A stretch of 59,342 nucleotides of DNA from a bacterium (lineage in GTDB: Bacteria > Electryoneota > JAOADG01): positions 1 through 59,342 of the forward strand of contig JAOADG010000032.1 of NCBI GenBank assembly GCA_026417415.1, in the 5' to 3' direction. The notes beneath the pieces were generated by a model that saw only the letters and a program-made list of their open reading frames with translations, was not told where the DNA came from and ran no database searches. A program made the translations under genes and the position numbers. This document shows, piece after piece, positions 16,846 to 59,342 of the stretch (position 1 is the stretch's first letter; each line of letters opens with the position of its first letter).

Positions 16846-19032
16846 TTACAGATGCCAAGAATGAAGACGTGATTGATAGTTCAATAAATCAATAGAATAC
16901 AAGAGGTTTTTGTTTTTTATCACTTGGACTTGCATTAGACCAATGTGTTTTTCAAAAATTAAATGATAATCAAATTCTTCATTCGTTTCTGTAATCACTT
17001 GGGTATGTAAATGAAGTTGGGGAGTTCCAAGCTCGGTAATTCTTAAGGTGTAACCTTTCGCTTTGGCCTTTCCGTAACCGCTTAACTCAAAAAACCGTTT
17101 CAATGGGCTTGCTACCCAGCGGCTGGTAACTTCATTTTCCCATTCAAATTTCGTTCCAACATATAAAGGTAAAATGGTTATTGCTGGGATAATTCTTTCT
17201 AACAATTTGGATTTTCCATTGGATTTGAAATCGGGATCCGTTTCATCCAAGTGAGACATCTGCCAATGTCCATAGGTTTTAATGGCTTGAATGACAATCG
17301 CACCATCATCTAACAAAAATCTTCCATACAATCCGGGACGACATAACAACCGAACTTCTTCTTGGGAATGCTTGGAAGAAATTCTATACAACCACTCCGC
17401 ACCTAAAATAGACCAAGGGAAAAATTCTTCCAATGAAACTGTATTCATTGCAAAATAGTTTGCTACTACATCCCCTTTTTGAGGTGAAGAATTCGTTAAA
17501 TAGTTCCATTTCCCATTTCTAAAAACTAGCAGACCTTGCCATTTCGCTGGAATGGTTTGTGCTAAAGGGTACCAATTGGATTGTAATGCGATATGTAAAT
17601 GAGGTTCCGGTGAACGACCTGAGTTTCCTACTTTGGCAATCTCTTGCCCAATATAAACTGGTTGCCCTACAACAACTTTGACTGAATTCTGTTTTAGATG
17701 TGCCAGTATAGAGTATTCATTCGGCGCATGATAAATTGAAATGAAATTTCCATAAGGATTTTCAGTATTGACTGTTTGAGGTGGGTTATCTGGAATTGAG
17801 TTTTCCACCGCAACCACCGTACCGTTTGCAGGTGCCAATACCGGCATTCCGTAGCCATAATAATCCGAAAGTGCTAAACCGGGATATGCAGCCGATCTTT
17901 CTTGGTCATCCAATAACATGAAATCCCAAGAATATTTTCCGACGCCTGTATGCGTAGGAAAGGTATCGTTGCCTTGGGTTACTGTCCATTTACCAAAATG
18001 TGGAAAACTTAACACTGTAAATGGATAAGATGCTTTTCTTAACCATTTCCAGTACTGTCTAAGATTTGCTTCAGCAGTTCCTACAGAAGCAAGCGGGTAA
18101 AGATGTATTCCTGTAAAAAGCCCTAACCGAAATGGAATAAGCAATACAATCACACCTATTGAAAAAGGAAAAGCCAATGGTGGAAGTTGTTCCTGTCGGA
18201 AATAGGTTTGAGTTGCAATAGAAAGTAATCCAACTAAAATTGTCCCAAATATAGCAAAAAGGATTCCATTTCGATTCGGAAGAACAAATACCCCACCTAA
18301 AGCCCCAGCAGCAAACACACAATTAAACGCAGCCAGAATCAGTTCGTTGTTCGGTAATTGATTGCCTGAAAGGATAAGAACGGTTCCCATCCCAATCAAG
18401 GTTCCAAAAATCATTGCAATTGCTGTTATTCTGGTTCCTAATACAATTCCTATTAAAATCAAAAGCCCAGCAAATACATTGGTTTGAAGTGAGGTAGCAC
18501 TGACAACCTTAAGAAAAGTGGAGATTTCTTTAGGGATTACGATTGCGAGTTGTGTATCCAAAGAATTGATCCACTCAAATTGAAAAGGTTCAATAACTTT
18601 ACCAAACCAACCTGTTTCAATTGCTACTTTATCTGCCAATAGACCGACCCATGTAGCGAAAACAAATGGCAATGCAAGAGATGGTATCCCATATTTCCAT
18701 CCTAAGATGGAAACGCTCACAGCAGTAAAAAAAGCCGAAAGCACCGCACATAACGGTACCAGAATAAACAAACTTGGAGTGGGTTTGATGTATAACGATA
18801 GTGCTAATCCAGTTAACAATCCACTTGCACCAAATACTCCCGCTTTGTGATAAGAACGATCCACTTTCATACTTAACGCAGTCAAATGCGCCGTAAGTGC
18901 TCCGATTAAACCGATTAAGCCGTGAAGTGGATTTAAAAAGGTTGCCAATAGAAAGAAAATGCCTGTACGTTTTCTACCACTAAATAGTACAGCACCATAT
19001 GCAGTTAAGAGATCTTTGATGATTTGATTCAT
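16846..19032 (-). CDS. urea transporter fused to an M23 (LytM-like) peptidase domain
   Basis: A 728-aa fusion. The first ~310 residues are a urea-transporter (UT) channel: ten or so hydrophobic segments, an early FLNPLHGLIGLIGALTAHLTA and a second half repeat, the pseudo-duplicated pattern of UT proteins. Residues ~345-495 are an M23 domain with THTGVGKYSWDFML (first His and Asp ligands), VLAPANGTVVAV, NFISIYH and SILAHL, and the final PHLHIAL zinc ligand. The last ~220 residues are beta-rich and unassigned. The same UT-M23 combination is known from some Bacteroidota. Why a urea channel carries a cell-wall peptidase fold is unknown. The start is an ATG without an evident Shine-Dalgarno, 39 nt after the ABC ATPase. 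Confidence 0.88.
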   Translation of the reverse strand: MNQIIKDLLTAYGAVLFSGRKRTGIFFLLATFLNPLHGLIGLIGALTAHLTALSMKVDRSYHKAGVFGASGLLTGLALSLYIKPTPSLFILVPLCAVLSAFFTAVSVSILGWKYGIPSLALPFVFATWVGLLADKVAIETGWFGKVIEPFQFEWINSLDTQLAIVIPKEISTFLKVVSATSLQTNVFAGLLILIGIVLGTRITAIAMIFGTLIGMGTVLILSGNQLPNNELILAAFNCVFAAGALGGVFVLPNRNGILFAIFGTILVGLLSIATQTYFRQEQLPPLAFPFSIGVIVLLIPFRLGLFTGIHLYPLASVGTAEANLRQYWKWLRKASYPFTVLSFPHFGKWTVTQGNDTFPTHTGVGKYSWDFMLLDDQERSAAYPGLALSDYYGYGMPVLAPANGTVVAVENSIPDNPPQTVNTENPYGNFISIYHAPNEYSILAHLKQNSVKVVVGQPVYIGQEIAKVGNSGRSPEPHLHIALQSNWYPLAQTIPAKWQGLLVFRNGKWNYLTNSSPQKGDVVANYFAMNTVSLEEFFPWSILGAEWLYRISSKHSQEEVRLLCRPGLYGRFLLDDGAIVIQAIKTYGHWQMSHLDETDPDFKSNGKSKLLERIIPAITILPLYVGTKFEWENEVTSRWVASPLKRFFELSGYGKAKAKGYTLRITELGTPQLHLHTQVITETNEEFDYHLIFEKHIGLMQVQVIKNKNLLYSIDLLNYQSRLHSWHL

Positions 19033-35849: not shown

Positions 35850-35934
35850 ACCGTTTCATCATACGATTAAGATCTTAGGAAGTAAACCATTTTCTTACTA
35901 CTTTTCAGAAACAACACTTTGATAAGAGGTGAAA

Positions 35935-38694
35935 ATGTTACATGATTTTTGCCAATATCGTAACTTTGGAACTCTTATGATCTTTGTGGTTTCTATTTTT
36001 CTGATCAATTCTGCTATTGGTGGTGTTAACGGGATGATTGTTGATTCATTAAGTGGACAACCTATTCCCGGTGCATTGATCAAGATTGGTCTCCAAGATT
36101 CAACCTTTACCGCTACCAATGGAATGTACAACTTACCTAATGTTGGTGCGGGAACGTTTCAAGTAGAAATCCGCAAATACGGTTATTTCAACCATTATAC
36201 GACTATCGTGCTTCAAATGGGTTCAAACACGGTCAATTTTTCTCTATATCCACTTACTTCTCCCCATAACCCGATTGGACAATGGGATTTTGATTTTCCG
36301 AGCAACTTGCTGCGTGCTACTACTGGCAACCATTTGGTGTTACAGGGCAATCATACTGCGGTTGTCGGTCCCGCAACTGGGAATGGTGCTGTCAACATTG
36401 GAGTAGGAAGTTTTTACCGATGCTACCATAATATTGCACCCAATGGTGGTAGTAGTTCCTGGGTCAATGAATACAGCATTTTAATTGATTTTAGAGTTTC
36501 TCAACTCGGTAGATGGTACACCTTTTTTCAAACCAACCTCAACAATTCTAATGATGGGGATTGCTTTATCAATCCAAACGGCAACATTGGAGTAGGTGCG
36601 ACGGGATACTCTTCCTATAGTATCGTACCGAACGAGTGGTATCGTTTGGTTGTTTCTGTGGATTTAGGAAGTAGTTATACATACTATTTGGATGGACAAT
36701 TGTTGCATCAAGGTACCAGTCAAGCGGTGGACGGACGGTTTGCCCTTTACTCAACTGTAAACGGAAATCAAATCTTGTTTTTTGCGGATGAAAATGGTGA
36801 AGATAATCCTATTGATGTTGCCCAAATTAGAATATACGACCGTCCTCTGACCAATCAAGAGGTGAATCAATTGGGTGGTTATGGACATTGGATCCAAAAC
36901 CCTCTGAATGTAATGACTCCTTATCTCCAAACCCCAACCCCAAATAGTATCACCATCGGCTGGCATTGTCCAATTTCTACTCATACTGTGGTAGAATATG
37001 GAACTACCCCTGCTTTAGGATTGATGCAGAGTGGTTCTACGGTCCAACTTAGTCCACAACAACTATGGCATCAGGTTACTTTACAGAATTTGCAACCAAA
37101 CACACGATACTATTATCGGTGTATTACGGATACTGCAGCCACGGCGGTTGCTACCTTCCATACCCCACCTTCTTATGGATCGTACCAAGGAAAATTGCGA
37201 TTTCTTCTTATCAGTGATTCTCAGACGAATATCTCTACCAGCAGTTGGATCTCCTCTATGATTGAACAGACCTTGATACAACGCTATGGTACCAATTACT
37301 CCGACAGTGTTCATCTAATCTTACATTGCGGTGATATCGTGGGGAATGGTTTCAATTTACCCTCTTACCAAACCGAGTATTTCCTTCCGTTTTCTAATCT
37401 TACAAAGCGTATCCCCTTTATGGTAAGTATCGGTAATCACGAATCAGAATCGCCTTACTTTTACAACTATATGCACTATACCCCTTTCGGAGGGGATGGC
37501 GGGGAATTGTATTATTCGTTTCAATTGGGTAGAGTGTTGTTTATTTCACTCAATTCCAATACCCAAGGGACAACCCAATTACAATGGCTAGTGAATCGTC
37601 TCAATCAAGCACAAAACGATACCACAATAGACATGATTTTTGTTGCGACTCACAAGCCGGGACGTAGCGAAGTTTGGCCCGATGGGAACACCGGTTGGGT
37701 GTACAATTCGGTGATGCCAATTTTAGATAACTATTCCAAGGTTGTTCTAATAAGTTTTGGCCACTCTCATAACTATGAACGTGGTGTTCGGCCGAGCGGA
37801 AATTATCGGACGGTAATCTGTGGTGGTGCAGGTGGTACCTTAGATCGCTGGAGGATGTATGGGAACCAAACCAATTATCCTGAGATTCACCGCTCGTTGG
37901 ATTATTATCATTATGTATTGGTAGAAGTATCTCTATTAAACGCTTCTTATCGTGCTTACGTGTATGGTTTAGGGAATGAACAGGTAACCATGAACAATGT
38001 TTTGGTGGATGTTTGGGAACATTTTCTTAATGCACCTTTAGGAAATCAACCCATTGGTTTGCAACCTTCCAACCAAACTTATGGGTATGTTCATCTTCTT
38101 GCATCGCTGTATGCAGGGGTGGATACTGTCTTTTCTTCGCAATTTCAAATTACCAATGTTCCCGGAAATTACAATAATCCGATTTTAAATGTTACCCGAC
38201 ATTTTGAAGATTATTATTATGACACAGGCAATCCAGAATATCAACCCATCAATTGGAATCAAGGTATTGAATTGCATCGCCTCAATCGGTTGGACACATT
38301 GCTCACTGTGGGTTCTACCTATGGCTGGCGAATGCGTTATCGTGGAAGTAACTTAAAGTGGACCCCTTGGTCAGAAGAACAAGTGTTTACTTGGAATGGC
38401 TTATCTGCAAGCGATATGAATTCAGAATTACCACAAGATTGGGTATCTCAAAACTATCCCAATCCTTTCAATAGGACCACAAAAATCGCTTATTCATTGT
38501 CAAGACCTAGTAAAGTTGAGATTACGCTTTACAATGAAATTGGACAAAAAGTAAGAGATTGGTATCTTGGTGAAAAACCAAAAGGAAATCATCTTTTCGA
38601 GTTAAGTGGTGAAACGTTAACTTCTGGAATATATTATCTGGTTGTAAAAACTGATTTTTATCGCGTACATAAAACGCTTCACCTAATCCAATGA
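35935..38694 (+). CDS. secreted purple-acid-phosphatase-like metallophosphoesterase with type IX sorting domain
   Basis: A 919-aa secreted protein. Order: signal peptide (to ~residue 28); carboxypeptidase-regulatory-like beta domain with SGQPIPGALIKIG; LamG/concanavalin-like domain (~105-300) with YYLDGQLLHQG and RIYDRPLTNQEV; a PAP-type Fn3 domain with TVVEYGTTPALG and NTRYYYRCITD; then the calcineurin-like catalytic domain (~405-660). Metal motifs in it are LISDSQTN, HCGDIVGNG, SIGNHESE, ATHKPG and FGHSHNYERG. A linker beta domain follows, and the C-terminal ~80 residues begin NYPNPFNRTTKIAYSL, a YPNPFN-type sorting signal. It likely releases phosphate outside the cell. It sits between livF and a Liv-type binding protein. 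Confidence 0.9.
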   Translation: MLHDFCQYRNFGTLMIFVVSIFLINSAIGGVNGMIVDSLSGQPIPGALIKIGLQDSTFTATNGMYNLPNVGAGTFQVEIRKYGYFNHYTTIVLQMGSNTVNFSLYPLTSPHNPIGQWDFDFPSNLLRATTGNHLVLQGNHTAVVGPATGNGAVNIGVGSFYRCYHNIAPNGGSSSWVNEYSILIDFRVSQLGRWYTFFQTNLNNSNDGDCFINPNGNIGVGATGYSSYSIVPNEWYRLVVSVDLGSSYTYYLDGQLLHQGTSQAVDGRFALYSTVNGNQILFFADENGEDNPIDVAQIRIYDRPLTNQEVNQLGGYGHWIQNPLNVMTPYLQTPTPNSITIGWHCPISTHTVVEYGTTPALGLMQSGSTVQLSPQQLWHQVTLQNLQPNTRYYYRCITDTAATAVATFHTPPSYGSYQGKLRFLLISDSQTNISTSSWISSMIEQTLIQRYGTNYSDSVHLILHCGDIVGNGFNLPSYQTEYFLPFSNLTKRIPFMVSIGNHESESPYFYNYMHYTPFGGDGGELYYSFQLGRVLFISLNSNTQGTTQLQWLVNRLNQAQNDTTIDMIFVATHKPGRSEVWPDGNTGWVYNSVMPILDNYSKVVLISFGHSHNYERGVRPSGNYRTVICGGAGGTLDRWRMYGNQTNYPEIHRSLDYYHYVLVEVSLLNASYRAYVYGLGNEQVTMNNVLVDVWEHFLNAPLGNQPIGLQPSNQTYGYVHLLASLYAGVDTVFSSQFQITNVPGNYNNPILNVTRHFEDYYYDTGNPEYQPINWNQGIELHRLNRLDTLLTVGSTYGWRMRYRGSNLKWTPWSEEQVFTWNGLSASDMNSELPQDWVSQNYPNPFNRTTKIAYSLSRPSKVEITLYNEIGQKVRDWYLGEKPKGNHLFELSGETLTSGIYYLVVKTDFYRVHKTLHLIQ

Positions 38695-41580: not shown

Positions 41581-44500
41581 ATGGCAGTAAAATCGTTCTT
41601 TACCGTATTTATCGTGTTTACATTGTTCTTCTGTTGTATTCCTACTGTTACCATTGCTGCAGAAGAAGATGTGATCTATTGTCCAAATCGCGTCTGGCTC
41701 TACCTTAGTCCTTCTCTTTCTTCTCAGTTGGTGCGAACGGATGATGGAAAAATTTTCTTTCCTACTGGTAATCGTGATTTAGATGCAATTTTAGCTGAAT
41801 ATCGTGTACAAGTACTGTATCCAACGTTTACTCACGATCCAATTTCCAAAGCCAATCCTTCTTTTTATTCCATTGGATTGGACCGTCATTATACGGTAAA
41901 ACTAACAGATCCGCAGTTTCAGAATCTCTCTGATAGAGATCTTTTTTATCTATGCAATCAATTCAAATCAGTTTGGGGTGTTGAAGATTCAGCACCTATT
42001 CCCTTGCATTGGGCACTTCTCACACCCAACGATTGGAATCTTGGTGGACGGAGCATGTGGGGATTGGATGCGATGTTTTGCCGCCAAGCATGGGATACTC
42101 AAACAGGTAACCCTTCCATTTTGGCTGTAACGATTGATACAGGCGTAAATTTTACTCATGAAGATTTAGCTGCCAATTTCGCAGTCAATCCAGCAGAAGA
42201 TATCAATGGAGACGGACAGTTTAGCACAGCCGATTTGGATAACATAGACAATGACAACAATGGTTTTGTTGATGACGTCATTGGTTGGGATTTTGTAAGT
42301 CACAGTTATACTGAAGTTGGAGGTGCATCGGCTGCACAAGGTGAAGATTATGGTCCACGCGATAATATCCCAAGCGATGTTCACGGACACGGCACGCATG
42401 TGGCTGGATCATTGATAGCCGTCACAAACAATTCGGTAGGGGTTTGCGCTGCCAGTTTTAATGTGAAGACCTTCGGTATGCGTGCAGGTTTTGCATTCAT
42501 TTACAACGGCGGTTTAACTGGTGCGGGTTTTGTAGATGACTTTGTTGCAGCGGTTCAATATGCAGTCAATCGTGGCGCTCGTATCATTAGCATCAGTTTT
42601 GGTGGTTCACAATCCAACACCAGTTATGCAGCAGCCATATCTTATGCACGTGTAAACAACTGTTTGGTGTTTGGTGCAGCAGGCAATAGTGGTAACACTT
42701 CACCCCGCTATCCAGCAGCATACGATAGTGCTTTAGCCGTAGCAGCCGTTCAACCCGGTTTAATCAAAGCCGACTTTTCTAACCATGGTGCTTGGGTAGA
42801 TTTTGCAGGTCCGGGAGTAAACATTTGGTCCACGATGGTGGTAAATACCTATAATCCACAGGCCTACGTCAATTGGGATGGTACTTCCATGGCTGCACCA
42901 AATGTGGCCTCTGCTGCAGCTTTAATTCTATCACGTGATCCCGGCTTAACTGACAATGAATTAGAAAGCATTATGCGAAACACGGCGACGGATATTAGTG
43001 ATCTTAATCCGGGCTATCAATTGGGTTCAGGAGTACCTAACACCAATGCTGCTGTAAATTCCATCACACCTTCCGGGATTTATATCGTAAGTCCAAATGG
43101 CGGCGAAGAGTGGTGGTTGGAACAAAACCAACGCATCCGTTGGATTGCCGCGGATTCTATACAAAACGTGCGTATTCAAATCAATCGGAGTTTTCCATCC
43201 AACAACTGGGAAACCCTGTTTGCTTCAACCCCAAATGATAGTCAACAATACTGGCTTGTAAATGGGGATACTTCTTCATTTTGCAGAATCCGAATTTTAA
43301 ATGCAGCCAATCTTAGCCGTTCTGACACATCCTCACAAAATTTTGCCATTCGCATGCCGTGGATTCAATTGACCTCTCCAACAGGAACGGATGTACTTCG
43401 CCAAGGAATTGCTCATACCATTACTTGGAACAGTGGTGGAATCGATTCCGTGATGATAGAATTGAATCGCAACTATCCGAACGGAGCATGGGAAATTATT
43501 GTACCAGCAATTGCTAATACTGGTTCCTACGCTTGGACCGTTACTCCACCTGCATCAAACAATGCCCGTATGAGAATATCCTACTTAAACCACTCAGAAT
43601 ACAACGATGTGTCCGATAGCAGTTTTGTTATCCTTACCCCGGGAATTACTGTAACTGCACCCAATGCTGCCACCGATTGGTACATCAATACAACTCAATC
43701 TATCCGTTGGTATTCCATAGGCGTGGGCCGAGTGAATATAGAAATCAATCGCAGTTATCCTTCATCCAATTGGGAAACGATTGCAAACAATGCTTTAAGT
43801 AATGGAATTTACAATTGGTTAGTGACTGGACCTACGACCAATTCGGCACGTATTCGTGTCACCAATGCCAACAACCCTAACCAATCCGATACCTCGGATG
43901 TAAACTTCAATATTGTTCCGTCAGATGTTATCATTACTTCACCTAATGGTGGTGAAGAACTTACCATCAATACAACTTATTCCATCACTTGGACAAGATT
44001 AGGGATCAACAACGCACGGATTGAGATTAACCGCAATTATCCTTCCGGTGCATGGGAATTGTTGGCTTCTAATGTAACCGCAGCAGGAGTTTGGAATTGG
44101 CAAGTTACTGCTCCTCCGTCCAGTGGAGCACGAATTCGTATTCTTAGTGAAACTAACCCTTCTTTAGGGGATACTTCCGACGCAAACTTTACCATCTCGG
44201 CACCGTGGATACGAACAATTTATCCAACAGGCGAAGATACCATCTTTATACGTCTTAATACTACGCTTCAATGGCAATCTGCTGGTTTTCCGGGAAATGT
44301 ACGCATAGAATTGAATCGGAACTATCCCAGTGGAACTTGGGAAATACTGTTCGACTCTATAGCAAATAGCGGTACTCAAGTGTGGAGCGTAACTGGACCT
44401 TCTACGAATCGTGCCCGAATCCGAATTCGTGCTTTGTCTGATACAGCGACAGCACTTACACCATCTAATTTTTCTATAATTGCTGGGACATACACCATAC

Positions 44501-45072
44501 TTGAACCGAACGGAGGCGAAGTTCTCACCTTAGGTTCAAATTACGATATTCGTTGGATTTCCAATTTACCGGGACGCTTTAACATTCAAATTGATCGCAA
44601 CTATCCCTCTGGTCAGTGGGCAACGCTCTTTTATGGTACACCCAATGACGGTGTCCAACGTTGGGTGGTCAATTCACCGACTTCCAATGCAGCACGGATT
44701 CGTTTGGTGTATGAAGGAAATTCTGCATTTGCAGATACCAGCGATGGTAACTTCATTATCACAGCATCCAGTGTATTAGAGCGTTTACAAGGAATACCTA
44801 CCCATTATGAATGCTCCATTTATCCTAACCCGTTCAATGCAGAGACCTCAATTCGGTTGGCTATTCCTGAAAGTGGTGATTTGTCTGTATCAATTTATGA
44901 TATGAATGGACGCTTGGTTTCAAAATTGGTCCAAGAGTTTGTTCATGCTGGTAGTTATACTTTGCGATGGAACAGCCAAACGCATCAACAACTCTTGCCC
45001 AGCGGGATTTACTTTTTACGTGTTCAGACCAAACATTGGCGCACAACAGAAAAATTGGTTCTACTCAAGTGA
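41581..45072 (+). CDS. secreted subtilisin-like (S8) protease with six beta repeats and type IX sorting domain
   Basis: A 1163-aa protein with signal peptide (to ~residue 26), then a pro-region. The catalytic triad is in AVTIDTGVNFTHEDL (Asp ~184), HGHGTHVAGSL (His ~270) and GTSMAAPNVASAAAL (Ser ~437). A calcium-loop-rich insert DINGDGQFSTADLDNIDNDN follows the Asp site. Residues ~500-1060 are six repeats of about 94 aa. The C-terminus starts IYPNPFNAETSIRLAI and ends KLVLLK, a YPNPFN sorting domain. AAAGGAG precedes the ATG. Its likely role is extracellular proteolysis or processing of other surface proteins. Confidence 0.94.
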   Translation: MAVKSFFTVFIVFTLFFCCIPTVTIAAEEDVIYCPNRVWLYLSPSLSSQLVRTDDGKIFFPTGNRDLDAILAEYRVQVLYPTFTHDPISKANPSFYSIGLDRHYTVKLTDPQFQNLSDRDLFYLCNQFKSVWGVEDSAPIPLHWALLTPNDWNLGGRSMWGLDAMFCRQAWDTQTGNPSILAVTIDTGVNFTHEDLAANFAVNPAEDINGDGQFSTADLDNIDNDNNGFVDDVIGWDFVSHSYTEVGGASAAQGEDYGPRDNIPSDVHGHGTHVAGSLIAVTNNSVGVCAASFNVKTFGMRAGFAFIYNGGLTGAGFVDDFVAAVQYAVNRGARIISISFGGSQSNTSYAAAISYARVNNCLVFGAAGNSGNTSPRYPAAYDSALAVAAVQPGLIKADFSNHGAWVDFAGPGVNIWSTMVVNTYNPQAYVNWDGTSMAAPNVASAAALILSRDPGLTDNELESIMRNTATDISDLNPGYQLGSGVPNTNAAVNSITPSGIYIVSPNGGEEWWLEQNQRIRWIAADSIQNVRIQINRSFPSNNWETLFASTPNDSQQYWLVNGDTSSFCRIRILNAANLSRSDTSSQNFAIRMPWIQLTSPTGTDVLRQGIAHTITWNSGGIDSVMIELNRNYPNGAWEIIVPAIANTGSYAWTVTPPASNNARMRISYLNHSEYNDVSDSSFVILTPGITVTAPNAATDWYINTTQSIRWYSIGVGRVNIEINRSYPSSNWETIANNALSNGIYNWLVTGPTTNSARIRVTNANNPNQSDTSDVNFNIVPSDVIITSPNGGEELTINTTYSITWTRLGINNARIEINRNYPSGAWELLASNVTAAGVWNWQVTAPPSSGARIRILSETNPSLGDTSDANFTISAPWIRTIYPTGEDTIFIRLNTTLQWQSAGFPGNVRIELNRNYPSGTWEILFDSIANSGTQVWSVTGPSTNRARIRIRALSDTATALTPSNFSIIAGTYTILEPNGGEVLTLGSNYDIRWISNLPGRFNIQIDRNYPSGQWATLFYGTPNDGVQRWVVNSPTSNAARIRLVYEGNSAFADTSDGNFIITASSVLERLQGIPTHYECSIYPNPFNAETSIRLAIPESGDLSVSIYDMNGRLVSKLVQEFVHAGSYTLRWNSQTHQQLLPSGIYFLRVQTKHWRTTEKLVLLK
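43078..44764 (+). repeat. six tandem ~94-residue beta-domain repeats in the subtilase
   Basis: Each unit starts with a (S/E)PNGGE- or (Y/S)PTG-type turn, then I-x-W, then a conserved IEINRNYPSGAWE-like block, and ends with ARIRI...DTSD.NF.I. Approximate unit starts are 43078, 43363, 43642, 43928, 44206 and 44490. The NRNYPSG core is nearly identical in most copies, while the connecting segments vary. The fold resembles the Ser-Thr-rich/Kre9-KNH-like beta domains found in surface proteins of FCB bacteria. Confidence 0.88.
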
Positions 45073-52110: not shown

Positions 52111-52422
52111 ATGATGAACAAAATGGTCGTTTTTTACAAGCAGCCAGAAAACATTGAAAGTTTTGTAACACGCTTCAAAACCCAACATCTGGAAATTTTA
52201 AAAAAGATTCCGGGTGTAACATCGGTCAAATTTACGATCCTTACTAAAACATTGGTAGGTGAAAATCCTTACTGGGCTTATTCAGAAACTTTTTTTGAAT
52301 CAGCAGATTCTTTGAAAGCAGCACTTAAGAGTCCTGAATTGGCAGAATCAGGAAAAGATGCAATGGAATTTGCTGCTGGTCTTTTTACCGTGATTCTTGC
52401 TACAGAGGAGACCTTATGCTAA
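52111..52422 (+). CDS. EthD-family small protein
   Basis: A 103-aa ferredoxin-fold protein. The pattern MNKMVVFYKQPENIESFVTRFKTQHLEILKKIPGVTSV (in parts) and SLKAALKSPELAESGKDAMEFAAG matches EthD/ABM-like dimeric alpha-beta barrel proteins, which assist oxidative catabolism or act as isomerases. AAAGGAG precedes tandem ATGs at 52111 and 52114. It overlaps the following crotonase-zinc ribbon gene by 7 nt, so coexpression is likely and its role is probably in the same acyl-CoA pathway. Confidence 0.75.
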   Translation: MMNKMVVFYKQPENIESFVTRFKTQHLEILKKIPGVTSVKFTILTKTLVGENPYWAYSETFFESADSLKAALKSPELAESGKDAMEFAAGLFTVILATEETLC

Positions 52423-53384
52423 AACGTCGCTATGTCGGTAAATCACCGGAAGCATTCAATTTTACACACTTGCTATATTCCAAACACGATGGCATTGCCA
52501 CCGTGACAATCAATCGCCCTCATAAATACAACGCATTGAATTGGGACACCCTTCGTGAAATGAGCATTGCTTTTGAAGATGTAAGTTGGGATGATAGCAT
52601 CGGAGTAATGGTTCTCACAGGTGCTGGTGATCAAGCATTTTGCACGGGTGCCGATTTAGATGAACAGATTGATGAGTTTTTGGAACGTCCCCGAGATTAT
52701 TGGAAATGGATGAATGCATTCATAGAAGCTCACGATCGTTTGCGAAACCTTGGAAAGCCCACCATTGCCAGATTAAATGGCATTGTGGTAGGAGGCGGAA
52801 ACGAATTCAATATCGCTTGTGATTTTGCAATTGCTGCAGAAGATATTTACATCCGTCAAGTTGGACCTGCACGTGGTAGCGTCCCTGCAGGTGGTGCAAC
52901 TCAATGGTTGCCGATTATTATTGGAGATCGTCGTGCAAGAGAATTGTTGATGTTGTGTGAAAATTTACCTGCACAAAAAGCATACGAATGGGGATTGGTG
53001 AATGAAGTGGTTCCACGAAGTGAATTGGACATTGCTGTCAATCGGATGGCAAAAAAACTTCTTCACCGTTTACCCAACGTAACACGATATACCAAAACTC
53101 AAGTAAACTTTTGGCGTGATTTATCATGGGGTTTAACCATTCAACACGCTAGAGATTGGTTAGGTATCCACACGGCATACCCCGAGATTTATGAAGGAAT
53201 GCATGCCTTTCGAAATAAACATTTACCCAATTATGACAAGATACGTGCAATGTGGAGCAATGATGAATCACCTGAGTATTTGTGGGGTGCTCCTAAATTA
53301 ACCTGTTCCCATTGTCAAACCGTTAATCCATCAAAAGCAAAATTTTGTATAGAATGTGGAACAAAATTCAAAGTGAGTGAATGA
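52416..53384 (+). CDS. crotonase-family enzyme (BamA/OAH-like) with C-terminal zinc ribbon
   Basis: A 322-aa protein. Residues ~15-280 are a crotonase fold: VTINRPHKYNALNWDTL, oxyanion hole AFCTGADLDEQ and NGIVVGGGNEFNIACD. The run VGPARGSVPAGGATQWLPIIIGDRRARELL resembles 6-oxocyclohex-1-ene-1-carbonyl-CoA hydrolases (BamA/Oah) (cited in parts). The second acidic position of classic hydratases (QPE) is VGP here. The C-terminal ~28 residues form a zinc ribbon CSHCQTVNPSKAKFCIECG (CxxC-x10-CxxC), an uncommon appendage to a crotonase. It lies between EthD and another crotonase, overlapping both. Confidence 0.85.
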   Translation: MLKRRYVGKSPEAFNFTHLLYSKHDGIATVTINRPHKYNALNWDTLREMSIAFEDVSWDDSIGVMVLTGAGDQAFCTGADLDEQIDEFLERPRDYWKWMNAFIEAHDRLRNLGKPTIARLNGIVVGGGNEFNIACDFAIAAEDIYIRQVGPARGSVPAGGATQWLPIIIGDRRARELLMLCENLPAQKAYEWGLVNEVVPRSELDIAVNRMAKKLLHRLPNVTRYTKTQVNFWRDLSWGLTIQHARDWLGIHTAYPEIYEGMHAFRNKHLPNYDKIRAMWSNDESPEYLWGAPKLTCSHCQTVNPSKAKFCIECGTKFKVSE

Positions 53385-54157
53385 TGAGTTCGTCGTTAGT
53401 ACTCTCTGAGATTCAAAATCACGTTGCCATTCTACGTCTAAACCGTCCACAAGTGCTGAATGCTCTTTCTTTAGAGTTAATGGACGAATTGGTCACGTGT
53501 ATAGAGATGTTTGACCAAGATGAGCAAATTCGCTGTATGGTCATCACAGGCAATGAACGTGCCTTTGCGGCTGGTGCAGATATTGGCGATATGGCAACTG
53601 CCACACCGATAGAAATGTATTTACGTGATCAATTTACAAAGTGGGAACGGATACGAAAGGTAAAGAAACCACTTCTTGCAGCGGTGAATGGATATGCCTT
53701 AGGTGGAGGTTGTGAGCTTGCAATGTTGTGTGATCTCATCGTTTGTGGAGAAAATGCTCGTTTTGGTCAACCGGAAATCCAATTGGGCATTATACCCGGT
53801 GCAGGTGGTACTCAACGATTAACACGTGCTGTTGGCAAATCCTTAGCAATGCAAATGATTCTTACAGGTCGTACAATCAGTGCAGAAGAGGCCTTGCAGT
53901 ACGGGTTAGTGGTAAAGGTGGTGCCAGTAGAATGTACTCTAAAAGAAACCATTAAAATTGCAGAAGAAATTGCAGCAAAACCTCCTATTGCAGTTCAAAT
54001 GGCGAAAGAAGCGATCCTAATGGCTTTTGAAACCAGTTTAAGCGAAGGGTTGCTCTTTGAACGAAAAAATTTCTATCTCTTGTTTGCAACCGAAGATCAA
54101 AAAGAAGGAATGAACGCTTTTACAGAAAAAAGAAAACCACAATGGAAAGGTAAGTAG
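53381..54157 (+). CDS. enoyl-CoA hydratase/isomerase family protein
   Basis: A 258-aa crotonase with LRLNRPQVLNALSLELM, oxyanion hole RAFAAGADIGDM and NGYALGGGCELAMLCD. Both catalytic glutamates are kept (GGGCELA and FGQPEIQLGIIPGAGGTQRL), so it should be a genuine hydratase. It starts at tandem ATGs overlapping the preceding gene by 4 nt. Similarity to the crotonase at 45993 suggests paralogy within the window. Confidence 0.92.
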   Translation: MMSSSLVLSEIQNHVAILRLNRPQVLNALSLELMDELVTCIEMFDQDEQIRCMVITGNERAFAAGADIGDMATATPIEMYLRDQFTKWERIRKVKKPLLAAVNGYALGGGCELAMLCDLIVCGENARFGQPEIQLGIIPGAGGTQRLTRAVGKSLAMQMILTGRTISAEEALQYGLVVKVVPVECTLKETIKIAEEIAAKPPIAVQMAKEAILMAFETSLSEGLLFERKNFYLLFATEDQKEGMNAFTEKRKPQWKGK

Positions 54158-54189
54158 CATCTTGGGAAACGAACTTATTATTTTCTATT

Positions 54190-57100
54190 GTGTGTCCACG
54201 ATTCATCCTTTATCACCTTTGGGTTCGGTATTTTTCTAAATTTTATTTACGTGTACTTGCGCTTGCGTTATGTGGATTTTCTCTTTTATGGGATAGTTAT
54301 GCTGAAGAATGGTTTGATGTTGTACAACGCAGTGTTTTAAGAGGTGCAGGAAAACCATTTCCTGCAGGTGAACTCTACAATTTTCGGAGACAATCGTTTT
54401 CCTTACCCAACCTTCCTGATCCATCGCCTCATAGTTCGCTAATGCCTACCTCGCTTGAATGGAGTGGACTACAAAATCATTATCGTTTTCACCCAGAACT
54501 ACAAAATGCTTTGGAAGTTGCCATTGAGCATCATCTTCAACAAACTTCTATCAAAGTCCAACATCTTTCCCGCACCGCACTTTTACTAACTGCCAAGGGT
54601 TTCATTGAACAAGATACAATGTTGCTTCTCCAATCCAAACAACTTTTACTTTCGCTTCCTTCTGCACCTTCCAAAGGAAGTTGGGCAAGAAATGATATGG
54701 ATCAGTATTGGGGTGATATGTTAGAAAGTTCATACTCAATGGTTTACCTCGCCATCTGTTACGATCTTATGCGTGGTCTGTTTTCAGACGGGGAACGACA
54801 TACGATACTGAATCAAATTGCTCAGATTTGCAGACGTTTAGAATATGGTGCAGAGGTAATTGGTCCCAATAATCATGCAGTTATCTCCGGTTGCCATTTA
54901 GCAACTACACTTCTTCTTTTGAATGAATCGGATTGTTCACAACACAAACTTCGTCGGATTGATCTTTGGAAACTCAGTGAACGTTTAATGCGAATTGGAC
55001 TGGCACAAGTTAGTGCTGATGGTATCTATCGTGAAGGTCCGGGCTATGCACAAGAAGTACTTAGAAGTATTACTCATTTGGGACTTCTTCTAAAATTACG
55101 TACCAATCAAAATTTGTTGAATGAACCATTACTAAAGAAACTTGCTTATAGCACAGCCAATTTATGTGATGAAAAAGGCAATCCATTACCCTTTGATGAT
55201 ACCTATCCAGTTAGTAAAAATTTGTGGCAATTGATCTCTATCTTGATTCCTCATTCACCCACCATCCTTTCATTTTCACAGGAACCACCACATCCCTATG
55301 CAAATGTTGAAGGTCTATTTTTTATGGTTCGCTTCCCTTATCGTCATTCTATTCCCATCCATTTGACTTCGGTACAAGAAATCTATTTGAATGGCGGTCA
55401 TTCTGTTTGGCGTGAACCGAATCAATGGGTAATTGCAATTAGTGCAGAATCACGGAAGCAATGGACAGGTCGCCATGAACAATTGGATATTGGGAATCTA
55501 TGCATCGCAATGAACGATCAAGTGTGTATAACCAGCGGTGGGTATGGTCAATATGGCGTAACCGATGAATCAAGACGATACTTTTTATCCGGCGAATCGC
55601 ATAGCAGTTTTCTCGTTCGTGGCAATCCCATGATAGAATGGGTGAACACTCCTGATATAGAAAATCATCCCTTATGGTCAGGTACTCAATGGAATTCCGA
55701 CGGTTTTTTTGGAACTGTACAATGGATACAAGATGGTGTTTCTATCCGAAGAAATTTTTTACGAGCAGGAAAACGTTTGATTCTAATTGATGAAACCCCT
55801 TCCGTAGATGAAGTGGAGAATCAATTTCTGTGTAATGGAGAACTTGTCCAACATTCAATTGGAGATTGGAAAGTTGTATCAAAAACGGGTGAAGCGATTC
55901 ATTTACAAACCCTACCCTTATCTTCAGGCAACGTTTCTAAAGGAATCACCACACTTGCTGCAAATCAACGCTCTTTTGTTCATCGCATCCGTTTTACAAT
56001 CCCCAAAAAACGGATTACTCTCTTTTCGCCGCGTGATGAATCGTTTGCTTTACGATACTTTGAATTGGATAGTAACAAACAACGAATAGAAATTTTGGAG
56101 TGGATTGAAGAAGATGGATCCAAATGGACCGTACGATATTTTACTCAATCTTCTCGTATTTGGATTTTGAAAAGCAATTTTCGTGATGCTTATTTGCATT
56201 GGATTAGCGATGAACCTTTTGATGCTGGATTTACTTTAATCTGGCAAGATGAACGTGGTTTTGCACTCTATCCATCTCCGATTGCCTATGATGAATTATC
56301 CGATTCTAAAAAAGTCAATCAAGTATTGAATCATTATCGTGAGATCATCCCTTTAGAACAATCGGTACAAGGTTATACTATTCTATCCAATTGGTTGGTG
56401 TATGGCACACCGCAAATTCAGTTGTTTCGCTTTGATGAATCAGTTTCATCCAACGCTTTGTCACGATTATCCAACGTACCTAATGGATTAGAATTTTCTG
56501 ATTGGTATCGCTCACTTGATAGCAAAACCGAATCAGAAATGGAGCAATCTGCAGCAGACAGTGTTTTACAATATGCTAAGCAAGCATTAGACACGTTGCA
56601 GTTTCATCAAACTTTTCGTGTAGCAACTGCTTTGATTGATGCAACTACGGATGGTTTTGTCCCTAATGTTTTTCGCATTCCTTTTGATGTTAGAGAAACC
56701 TTTTCCTTTTCTGATTCAAGCTGCGTAGTCATTGATACGCGTGGTGCTTGGGGCAGTGGATTACGAATGGATCATCTTCGTTTGCAATATCGCACGTATC
56801 CTAATGGAGGTTGGGAGATTGGTAGATCTACACCCCACCAACATTTAGAGAGTTATTCATTCACTTTTTGGAACGATCGTTGGTCGTTGAGTGCGGATCA
56901 TTCCGATTCGTACCTAAGTGGAATTTGTACCAGATACTCCAATGCTGCTACGTTGCTGTTTTTTAGAAGTGAGTTGTACCAAAAGGAGTATGTTCAATTT
57001 TCCAGTTTTGGATTTTGGAAAACTCATCAATATGAATTTTCTCACACCAAAGAAATGTTTTCAGTAGGTTACACTAAGCAACTGGAATGGAACAAGTTTT

Positions 57101-57876
57101 TCATTACCAGCGGTATAAAATATCAACAGAATCAACAGAACCGAAACGAAAGAAAAAGAGGATATTTACTCTTGAATCATTCCAATCGTGTGCATTCAAC
57201 CTTTGACGTACAGCATTTAAACAACCAATTTTATTCCATTACGAACTTACGATTCCACTTTCCAAACTTTCAAATTCACACACTTTACCAACACTTTGCA
57301 CAAAGTCGGTTCCATCAAACAGGACGTTTTTTGACTCCTTCTATCTTGGGTGAAAAAGGGCACGGTTCATTCGCATATGAACGAACTTCCAATCAACCGT
57401 TTCATTTCACTTTTGCTCGTTATCCTATCATTAACAGACGACCAATGCAATGGTTTATTGGTTATCAACAATTGGATTGTCCATACAAAACAGTTGAAAG
57501 TAACTTGAAATTGCCTTTTGGATTTTTTTCTTCTTTAATTGGAATAACCAGTCGTTCTTTTTTATTTCGTTCCGAGGTCTCTATTTCACGAGGTACACAA
57601 ACAGCATGGTTTTCATGGTTAGCGGATCATCAAAAATACCAAATCACCACCAATTACGCTTTACACTTACTCCAAAATTCCTCTCAATTTCTTTTAGAAG
57701 TGCAATGGAATGAATATCGCAATAAATCTCATTTCACAGGTTATGAGGATCTCTGGAATGTTCGGTGTTCTTTACAACACTTGACATCACAACAAGGCAT
57801 CATTCAGAAAGTGCATTTAAAAAAATTGCATACTGGTGAACTTTTTGCAGAAGGTGGATTTGTGTTCAATTGGTAA
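54190..57876 (+). CDS. heparinase II/III-like polysaccharide lyase with barrel-like C-terminal region
   Basis: A 1228-aa exported protein (signal peptide about residues 20-38, ending in YAEE). Residues ~80-330 form the helical toroid domain typical of chondroitin/alginate lyases, with ARNDMDQYWGDMLESSYSMVYLAICYDLM and GPNNHAVISGCHLATTLLL. Residues ~370-620 form the heparinase II/III beta-sandwich with NGGHSVWREPNQW, RHEQLDIGNLCIAM and YFLSGESHSSFLVRG (His pair). The last ~350 residues are alternating-polarity strands ending GGFVFNW, like an outer-membrane beta-barrel. The start is GTG without a strong Shine-Dalgarno. It probably degrades uronic-acid polysaccharides at the surface. Not sure whether the barrel is real. 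Confidence 0.75.
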   Translation: MCPRFILYHLWVRYFSKFYLRVLALALCGFSLLWDSYAEEWFDVVQRSVLRGAGKPFPAGELYNFRRQSFSLPNLPDPSPHSSLMPTSLEWSGLQNHYRFHPELQNALEVAIEHHLQQTSIKVQHLSRTALLLTAKGFIEQDTMLLLQSKQLLLSLPSAPSKGSWARNDMDQYWGDMLESSYSMVYLAICYDLMRGLFSDGERHTILNQIAQICRRLEYGAEVIGPNNHAVISGCHLATTLLLLNESDCSQHKLRRIDLWKLSERLMRIGLAQVSADGIYREGPGYAQEVLRSITHLGLLLKLRTNQNLLNEPLLKKLAYSTANLCDEKGNPLPFDDTYPVSKNLWQLISILIPHSPTILSFSQEPPHPYANVEGLFFMVRFPYRHSIPIHLTSVQEIYLNGGHSVWREPNQWVIAISAESRKQWTGRHEQLDIGNLCIAMNDQVCITSGGYGQYGVTDESRRYFLSGESHSSFLVRGNPMIEWVNTPDIENHPLWSGTQWNSDGFFGTVQWIQDGVSIRRNFLRAGKRLILIDETPSVDEVENQFLCNGELVQHSIGDWKVVSKTGEAIHLQTLPLSSGNVSKGITTLAANQRSFVHRIRFTIPKKRITLFSPRDESFALRYFELDSNKQRIEILEWIEEDGSKWTVRYFTQSSRIWILKSNFRDAYLHWISDEPFDAGFTLIWQDERGFALYPSPIAYDELSDSKKVNQVLNHYREIIPLEQSVQGYTILSNWLVYGTPQIQLFRFDESVSSNALSRLSNVPNGLEFSDWYRSLDSKTESEMEQSAADSVLQYAKQALDTLQFHQTFRVATALIDATTDGFVPNVFRIPFDVRETFSFSDSSCVVIDTRGAWGSGLRMDHLRLQYRTYPNGGWEIGRSTPHQHLESYSFTFWNDRWSLSADHSDSYLSGICTRYSNAATLLFFRSELYQKEYVQFSSFGFWKTHQYEFSHTKEMFSVGYTKQLEWNKFFITSGIKYQQNQQNRNERKRGYLLLNHSNRVHSTFDVQHLNNQFYSITNLRFHFPNFQIHTLYQHFAQSRFHQTGRFLTPSILGEKGHGSFAYERTSNQPFHFTFARYPIINRRPMQWFIGYQQLDCPYKTVESNLKLPFGFFSSLIGITSRSFLFRSEVSISRGTQTAWFSWLADHQKYQITTNYALHLLQNSSQFLLEVQWNEYRNKSHFTGYEDLWNVRCSLQHLTSQQGIIQKVHLKKLHTGELFAEGGFVFNW

Positions 57877-57927: not shown

Positions 57928-59342
57928 TTATGGATTCGTTAGCAAATAGGCAATGGCATTATCTAGCAAGGATAACGCATACGCTGGATTGTGAACGCCT
58001 TTACTCTTATCCGCACGAACAAACGTATATGCCCATAATGCTTTTCTATGGTTGGGTGTAACTCCCGGTCTTTGATTCCATACCCCAATGCTATCCGGAT
58101 TGTTTCTAAAATCAACACCGGATAGATTGGAAATAAGCAGCAATACAGAATCCATTTTAGTTTGAATTCTGGTTTGGAATCCGTTCAAATCAAAGTTGGT
58201 AGCACCGGGATGGCAACCAGTACAAGCATTGATCACGGTTTCAAAACGATGATCGGAATGTGGATGAGTCCCTGTAGTGGTCATATGACAACTGACACAT
58301 GCCTTGGGTATGGTTTTATGTCCAACGGTAGACGAACCGCGGTTATAAGTGTAGCCCGCAATTTCATAAGAACCACCACCTAAGAACATATCCATCTGAT
58401 TGCTTTCATGTGGTCCAAATCTGAGCGCATGTCCATTGGCGATCTGCCCTGCTACATAAGTACTATCCCGTCTATCCTTATGGCATTGTACGCATGATTG
58501 TCCTGTACCATAACCACTAAACACAAAGATCCCGTGCGTACGATTGGTTACCGTATCCGTTGTTAAATTACGAAGTTGGTAAGTTCCTGACGCAGTTTGT
58601 TTATGCGGATCGTGGCACGTGGGACAGCCAATTAATTCCGCTACAGCAGGTCGTTCCATATTGGTATAATTGGGATCGTTTGCACGAATGAACCCTTCCG
58701 AAGTGTGACACTCCCAACAATTATTCAGATTGCCAATCGGATTGGTTGACCATGTTGCTCGCACAAATTCAGCAGTAAATTGCTCAATGGTTCTTCCAGA
58801 TCGGGTTAAGGTATTTCCGTGCCCGGATTGTGCCCATTCATCAAGTTGTGTGTTGTGACAAGGTGTGCAAAGAGATTGAGACACACCACCTACAGTACGA
58901 CTACCAAAGGATACTTTTGGTAACGTCGCATTTGCAGGTCCGTGACACGCCTCGCATTGAACATTTTTCAATGCTTCCATTCGTGCTAAGGATAAAGAAT
59001 CTGTTTTGTTCCAATAATCATCAAAACCATTTCTATCTGGTCCATAATTTGTAATGACCGTATCACCCATCGCGATAGGAGAATCCCATCCGGTGGTATG
59101 ACAACTTAAGCAGTAACCAGTATTTTGCATATTGGCTGGTAAATAAGAAAATGCTTGGGCATGTTTCGTACCTAACCATTGCTGTGTATTGGACAAATGG
59201 CAGTGCCCACATTCCAGCATATTGTTCCCACGGTAGGTAAATCTCGTCAAATCTCGTCCATCATGTCCGGGAGGTCCTGGAGGTCCAGCGGGACCTTGTG
59301 GACCAGCAGGTCCTTGAGCACCATCTTCACCTTTACATCCAA
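57928..59342 (-). CDS. collagen-like, multiheme c-type cytochrome (partial, open at right edge)
   Basis: The reading frame is open to the window edge, so the 5' end is missing. Translated from the edge: a Gly-Cys (possible lipobox end), then ten uninterrupted Gly-X-Y triplets (59251-59340), then ~440 aa with nine CxxCH heme sites (CGHCH, CLSCH, CEACH, CTPCH, CWECH, CPTCH, CVQCH, CVSCH, CTGCH). Many extra His could be distal ligands. The last ~90 residues are helical and lack hemes. The domain resembles cytochrome c554/NrfA-like surface multihemes. The codon at 59250 is TTG (Leu), not a start. It should be exported and matured by a c-type system. Confidence 0.88.
   Translation of the reverse strand, partial: GCKGEDGAQGPAGPQGPAGPPGPPGHDGRDLTRFTYRGNNMLECGHCHLSNTQQWLGTKHAQAFSYLPANMQNTGYCLSCHTTGWDSPIAMGDTVITNYGPDRNGFDDYWNKTDSLSLARMEALKNVQCEACHGPANATLPKVSFGSRTVGGVSQSLCTPCHNTQLDEWAQSGHGNTLTRSGRTIEQFTAEFVRATWSTNPIGNLNNCWECHTSEGFIRANDPNYTNMERPAVAELIGCPTCHDPHKQTASGTYQLRNLTTDTVTNRTHGIFVFSGYGTGQSCVQCHKDRRDSTYVAGQIANGHALRFGPHESNQMDMFLGGGSYEIAGYTYNRGSSTVGHKTIPKACVSCHMTTTGTHPHSDHRFETVINACTGCHPGATNFDLNGFQTRIQTKMDSVLLLISNLSGVDFRNNPDSIGVWNQRPGVTPNHRKALWAYTFVRADKSKGVHNPAYALSLLDNAIAYLLTNP
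59251..59340 (-). repeat. collagen-like Gly-X-Y triplets at the cytochrome N-terminus
   Basis: Ten in-frame triplets encode GCK GED GAQ GPA GPQ and GPA GPP GPP GHD GRD, with proline in five of the X and two of the Y positions. Only GPA and GPP are repeated and most triplets differ, so the stretch is not a simple DNA microsatellite. Confidence 0.9.

Follow-up and report, generated by a model that had tools for sequence, protein, structure and literature searches.

OcwA of Thermincola potens, the nearest solved relative of the protein described here, is a nonaheme terminal reductase of the cell surface that occurs as a monomer or dimer. Seven of its hemes are six-coordinate and two (hemes 2 and 5) are open, and the purified protein acts on nitrite and hydroxylamine (PMC6703420). 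In Geobacter sulfurreducens, the extracellular cytochrome PgcA is lipid-anchored and carries proline-rich repeats between the lipid site and the hemes (PMC5732950). Gly-X-Y repeats, in turn, are known from a published outer-membrane collagen-like protein, Bucl8 of Burkholderia (PMC7682875). A search of the open-access literature found no paper joining 'collagen-like' with 'multiheme cytochrome', and a looser one turned up nothing relevant.

We analysed a window of 59,342 nucleotides that is an entire contig (C19 of genome G000). Its last gene probably encodes a surface-tethered nonaheme lipoprotein reductase of the OcwA/NrfA type in which a collagen-like run would serve as the spacer tether; the surface orientation, the electron route and the acceptor are what we infer rather than observe. 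Both modules, the OcwA-type nonaheme head and the collagen-like lipoprotein tether, are known already; their combination is the new part.

A nonaheme cytochrome preceded by Gly-X-Y triplets

The open frame (57928-59340, minus strand) is uninterrupted over 470 residues and runs off the right end of the contig (Table 1). Its first 30 residues are ten Gly-X-Y triplets (GCKGEDGAQGPAGPQGPAGPPGPPGHDGRD), with Gly at every third residue and no break, and the first of nine CxxCH sites (residues 44, 77, 129, 158, 208, 239, 283, 348 and 373) follows 13 residues downstream of the run. The translation therefore bears out the order of ten unbroken triplets and nine heme sites that a sequence-only reading of this DNA had described. 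That reading also expected an N-T-T codon ahead of Gly-Cys, in agreement with the two T present at the contig end. Among 20,000 shuffled versions of the sequence, one had a run of 7 Gly-X-Y triplets and none a longer one. The motif GC-x-G-x-x-G-x-x-G is invariant in an alignment of 19 family members; since they share the same Gly-X-Y start at the same place and the frame is continuous, a frameshift artefact was ruled out as the source of the run.

Table 1. Coordinates of the nonaheme cytochrome gene, its parts and its convergent neighbour in the window.
Feature	Position	Strand	Basis or remark
Nonaheme c-type cytochrome gene	57928..59342	-	5' end lost at contig end; 470 residues left
Stop codon of nonaheme cytochrome gene	57928-57930	-	
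Collagen-like tether, ten Gly-X-Y triplets (GCK-GED-GAQ-GPA-GPQ-GPA-GPP-GPP-GHD-GRD)	59251..59340	-	position shared by 19 aligned proteins
Cys codon, expected lipidation site (+1 of lipobox [FLIV]-G-C)	59335..59337	-	inferred from aligned homologues
Heme motif 1, CGHCH	59197..59211	-	sequence
Heme motif 2, CLSCH	59098..59112	-	sequence
Heme motif 3, CEACH	58942..58956	-	sequence
Heme motif 4, CTPCH	58855..58869	-	sequence
Heme motif 5, CWECH	58705..58719	-	sequence
Heme motif 6, CPTCH	58612..58626	-	sequence
Heme motif 7, CVQCH	58480..58494	-	sequence
Heme motif 8, CVSCH	58285..58299	-	sequence
Heme motif 9, CTGCH	58210..58224	-	sequence
C-terminal long helices, NrfA/OcwA type, residues 385-468	57937..58188	-	AlphaFold model and alignment to OcwA 6i5b C-terminus
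Convergent neighbour, 1228 residues	54190..57876	+	weak heparinase II/III C-terminal match below cut-off

With so short a run, the Pfam Collagen family (PF01391) scored 19.6 and 24.7 bits on the protein, both below the curated cut-off of 27.2; the homologue in genome G018 just reaches it, at 27.2 bits. The single-chain AlphaFold model leaves the stalk unstructured (pLDDT about 30). We also looked for lipobox-collagen starts with the DNA pattern GC-x-G-x-x-GP-x-GP. Besides nonaheme proteins, it matched non-heme lipoproteins of the host phylum and others, some of which have 26-48 triplets, as well as a diheme protein (L235) and, in another phylum, a six-heme relative (L240). As unrelated lipoproteins carry it too, the Gly-X-Y start is, judged by these matches, best read as a generic, reusable lipoprotein tether that is not heme-specific. 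Collagen-like lipoproteins of another phylum (loci L243-L245) likewise have Gly-X-Y directly after the lipidated Cys; they differ in having no hemes and 13-48 triplets. Together, L243, L244 and L245 hold several such lipoproteins, some in tandem. By analogy, the spacer appears to play a part similar to that of the proline-rich repeats in PgcA, which differs in carrying three hemes between PTX repeats and in being released by processing (PMC5732950). Collagen matches in two relatives (L073 and L083) were rejected, being FtsZ C-terminal linkers with NGT/NGK-type repeats.

Relationship of the heme domain to OcwA and NrfA

A profile built from 19 family members was searched against the PDB. The best match was OcwA (6i5b, E 1.5e-21), whose nine heme motifs align in the same order; NrfA (4.5e-13), octaheme nitrite reductases and MccA came next. 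Pfam recognised pieces of cytochrome c554, c7, c3 and c552 in the protein. Its AlphaFold model is weak overall (mean pLDDT 63.7), with C-terminal helices at about 77-95; Foldseek matched this low-confidence model to an undecaheme S-layer cytochrome and NrfA-type proteins at TM about 0.3, which we take as supporting only. The profile match and the model together indicate two traits of the NrfA/OcwA superfamily, the heme motif order and the C-terminal helical bundle, and on this comparison we place the head as a distant relative of OcwA within the NrfA superfamily.

Shared with OcwA are the nine c hemes in order, a CE-x-CHGP at heme 3, an EW-x2-[ST]GH segment and C-terminal helices ending DGS-x-GVHN. 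Unlike OcwA, the protein has no inserted beta-sheet domain, and the gap between motifs 1 and 2 is 28 residues versus about 100 (PMC6703420). The His-His motifs that OcwA has over hemes 2 and 5 are not conserved in the collagen-tethered family, and the alignment of 19 members holds no invariant His-His pair outside CxxCH. As the inserted domain and these motifs are absent, the protein is a relative rather than OcwA proper, and its acceptor need not match that of OcwA. Seven non-motif His are invariant for the nine hemes (residues 60, 174, 246, 311, 341, 364 and 450), a number that would fit two of the hemes being open; this may be the case.

A probable lipoprotein start and a possible export signal

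Intact homologues read signal peptide, lipobox, Cys, Gly-X-Y run and nine CxxCH, as in the G001 homologue from a genome of the same family, which begins MKSTTVWILLFTIVAALLLVGCEGKEGKQGPAGPAGQNGNNG. The Cys of Gly-Cys is invariant in all aligned homologues, with a signal peptide ahead of it in each intact one. In these proteins the stalk stands directly between lipid and heme domain, the placement that the sequence-only reading had given it. The lipoprotein assignment made there gains from the same homologues, but the gene's own upstream sequence was not recovered from any contig end: a check of the two ends of each of the other 39 contigs for a signal peptide running outward gave no convincing candidate. 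A synteny route gave no link either, the gene upstream of the G001 homologue sitting mid-contig in the host genome. The missing N-terminus counts against the surface-tether explanation. On the homologues, an outer-membrane lipoprotein is nonetheless a well-supported assignment, with the lipidation of this copy deduced from theirs. Here too OcwA differs: in its Gram-positive host, cleavage behind the signal peptide leaves a protein beginning EKPAD... (PMC6703420).

The start C-[EKQ]-G-x-[EDQ]-G could also serve mainly in sorting, by causing the lipoprotein to be flipped onto the surface in a Bacteroidota-like manner and leaving the other triplets as mere spacer. Nearly all aligned members have an acidic residue at +4 and/or +5 (KGEDG in the window), near the acidic pair of the Capnocytophaga surface-export signal, C-X-K-(D/E)2-X (PMC5080379), and even the members with Ig-like domains keep the first four triplets. 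A Bacteroidota-like envelope is further suggested by type IX secretion tails on two window proteins. However, one member lacks an acidic residue at +4/+5 (EGPQG), many have just one, and both position and charge deviate from the published consensus, which comes from another lineage. We rate sorting as the main function as rather unlikely. It is compatible with, and not exclusive of, a surface tether, and we would guess by analogy with the Capnocytophaga acidic residues that the first triplets may double as an export signal.

The two window proteins ending in Por_Secre_tail (type IX secretion) are a purple-acid-phosphatase-like protein (35929-38694) and a subtilase (41581-45072); such tails point to a Bacteroidota-related envelope and would suggest that the host phylum falls within the Bacteroidota-related (FCB) group.

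Distribution of the stalked protein and variation of the spacer

Searching the proteins of 60 related genomes gave many full-length homologues, the closest being that of G001 (51% identity). The stalked nonaheme protein occurs in 19 of 39 genomes of the host phylum and in four of five genomes of a second, small phylum. Whether this lineage has the architecture had been left undecided in the sequence-only reading; it is common there and not peculiar to the host organism.

Triplets number 4-13 across intact relatives of both phyla. Counted by hand from the sequences, 13 of the 39 genomes have 6-11 triplets and six more have 4-5, in nearly all of which an Ig-like domain then follows; the four genomes of the second phylum have 7-13. 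The distance from Cys to heme 1 is 30-51 residues with a full stalk and 117-120 with 4-5 triplets plus the Ig-like domain. In one paralogue (L056), an N-terminal region of about 441 residues replaces the stalk and heme motif 1 lies at residue 439-441. When the heme domains were placed in a maximum-likelihood tree, the stalked members formed a single group of 27 rows with weak support (83/79). The tree requires several changes of spacer label, so the spacer has been shortened, joined to an Ig-like domain or, as in L056, replaced. Farther out in the family, the N-terminal domains differ and the collagen run is missing. The host genome itself carries a paralogue of this non-collagen sort on contig C38, with a lipobox, a spacer that is Ig-like by eye, and nine hemes. 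A separate scan of genome contigs gave distant relatives only. Elsewhere (L065, 8230-11221), tandem paralogues have eight CxxCH only, the ninth motif of the first being C-T-C-H, one residue short.

This variation bears on the proposal, made in the sequence-only reading, that a collagen helix joins three copies of the protein in a 27-heme conduit on a stalk. HAO-type proteins of the wider superfamily are trimers, and a true triple helix would suit the ten perfect triplets (five GPX, two of those GPP), the start that is invariant across 19 aligned proteins and the long runs of the second phylum; several relatives, however, are down to 4-5 triplets followed by an Ig-like domain, and no separate trimerisation domain was seen in the protein. 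Reported melting temperatures are about 27 °C for (Gly-Pro-Pro)10, <27 °C for (Gly-Pro-Pro)7 and about 10 °C for (Gly-Pro-Hyp)6 (PMC7824840). Compared with these peptides, a stalk of ten triplets, two of them GPP, would probably not keep a triple helix together by itself, and on the published values we read the stalk as a spacer.

No measurement points to trimerisation, stalk length varies and proline is low, so that the helix trimer of the earlier proposal is not supported. Its 27-heme conduit fares no better, with a stalk replaceable by Ig-like or other domains and OcwA a monomer or dimer (PMC6703420). We consider the trimer highly improbable, and the protein most likely works as a monomer or dimer. 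Were the helix to work after all, a long shot in our judgement, a trimeric 27-heme surface reductase would stand several nanometres off the outer membrane and would be kept in at least two uncultured phyla. As a spacer, the 30 collagen-like residues would place at most about 8-9 nm, when extended, between the lipid and one or two nonaheme heads, with no trimerising helix, and would bring the conduit exit as well as the acceptor within reach of a head.

Gene neighbourhood and a proposed electron route

A gene for a heme-free beta-barrel (porin) protein of about 420 residues lies within about 2.5 kb of the nonaheme gene at 8 of 16 loci in the host phylum. The protein is predicted to be an outer-membrane barrel of about 22 strands with an N-terminal helix (signal peptide). 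At 11 of the 16 loci there is a multiheme/quinol dehydrogenase cluster near the gene. The conserved set comprises a CbcL-like protein in which 17-19 hemes are joined to a cytochrome b561 domain, an ImcH-like protein that starts like NapC/NirT and has 17-18 hemes, and 11-, 7-8- and 4-heme proteins; domains were checked on the host-genome copies and one relative. In the host genome, the 19-heme b561-fused protein, the 17-heme NapC/NirT-type protein and the porin are encoded on C38 at about 396-404 kb (L068, 6035-16539) with an NrfD/Fe-S/tetraheme group and without the stalked nonaheme gene, which is on C19.

Porin-cytochrome genes near the gene, which the sequence-only reading proposed to look for, are thus found in relatives but not in the host genome, where the conduit genes do not adjoin the nonaheme cytochrome; this, too, is a point against the surface-tether explanation. 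Electron transfer at the outer membrane is supported by the porin and multiheme genes beside the homologues. As in Geobacter conduits such as ExtABCD of Geobacter sulfurreducens, the genes for a barrel, a periplasmic multiheme protein and an outer-membrane lipoprotein cytochrome lie together at about half of the relatives' loci (PMC6148476, PMC12307469). Unlike in ExtABCD, the lipoprotein is an OcwA-type nonaheme protein with a collagen-like tether, and its gene in the host genome lies apart from that of the barrel.

In the route we propose, menaquinol would be oxidised by the CbcL-like and ImcH-like inner-membrane multiheme proteins, and the electrons would cross the periplasm and outer membrane via multiheme carriers and the porin. 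The tethered head would then receive them from the conduit and pass them to an extracellular acceptor (a mineral, a partner protein or a soluble acceptor).

None of the sequence features tested showed surface exposure of the head, which tells against this route. The lipoprotein, having no proven surface signal, might instead face the periplasm from the inner leaflet of the outer membrane, as a reductase of the NrfA superfamily for a soluble acceptor (nitrite, hydroxylamine, tetrathionate or similar). After OcwA, its C-terminal part is nearest to NrfA and the octaheme nitrite reductases, and OcwA, when purified, shows activity with nitrite and hydroxylamine (PMC6703420). Yet all nine motifs are CxxCH, with no CxxCK active-site heme among them, the closest relative of solved structure sits at the cell surface, and porin and conduit genes adjoin the gene in relatives. 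We therefore hold a periplasmic reductase to be unlikely; most likely the head lies on the cell surface and passes respiratory electrons outside the cell.

Many members of one uncultured phylum, and a second small phylum as well, retain the design, often beside porin-cytochrome genes, which suggests that OcwA-type surface reductases are not limited to Gram-positive bacteria. With a natural spacer of 4-13 triplets, it should be possible to test directly how tether length affects extracellular electron transfer.

The heparinase-like neighbour of the nonaheme gene (Table 1) has a counterpart of similar size beside the gene in G001; in both genomes such a heparinase-like gene, and not the conduit genes, adjoins the cytochrome. 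The window (52111-57876) and another family member (L051, 3163-10955) have in common a small protein of 103-120 residues, two enoyl-CoA hydratases and a protein of 1230-1250 residues; the orientation of the nonaheme gene relative to these kept neighbours differs between the two. The window also contains a tmRNA gene (2451-2807; Rfam RF00023, 164.7 bits) and a 728-residue protein in which a urea-transporter domain is fused to a peptidase M23 domain (16849-19032).
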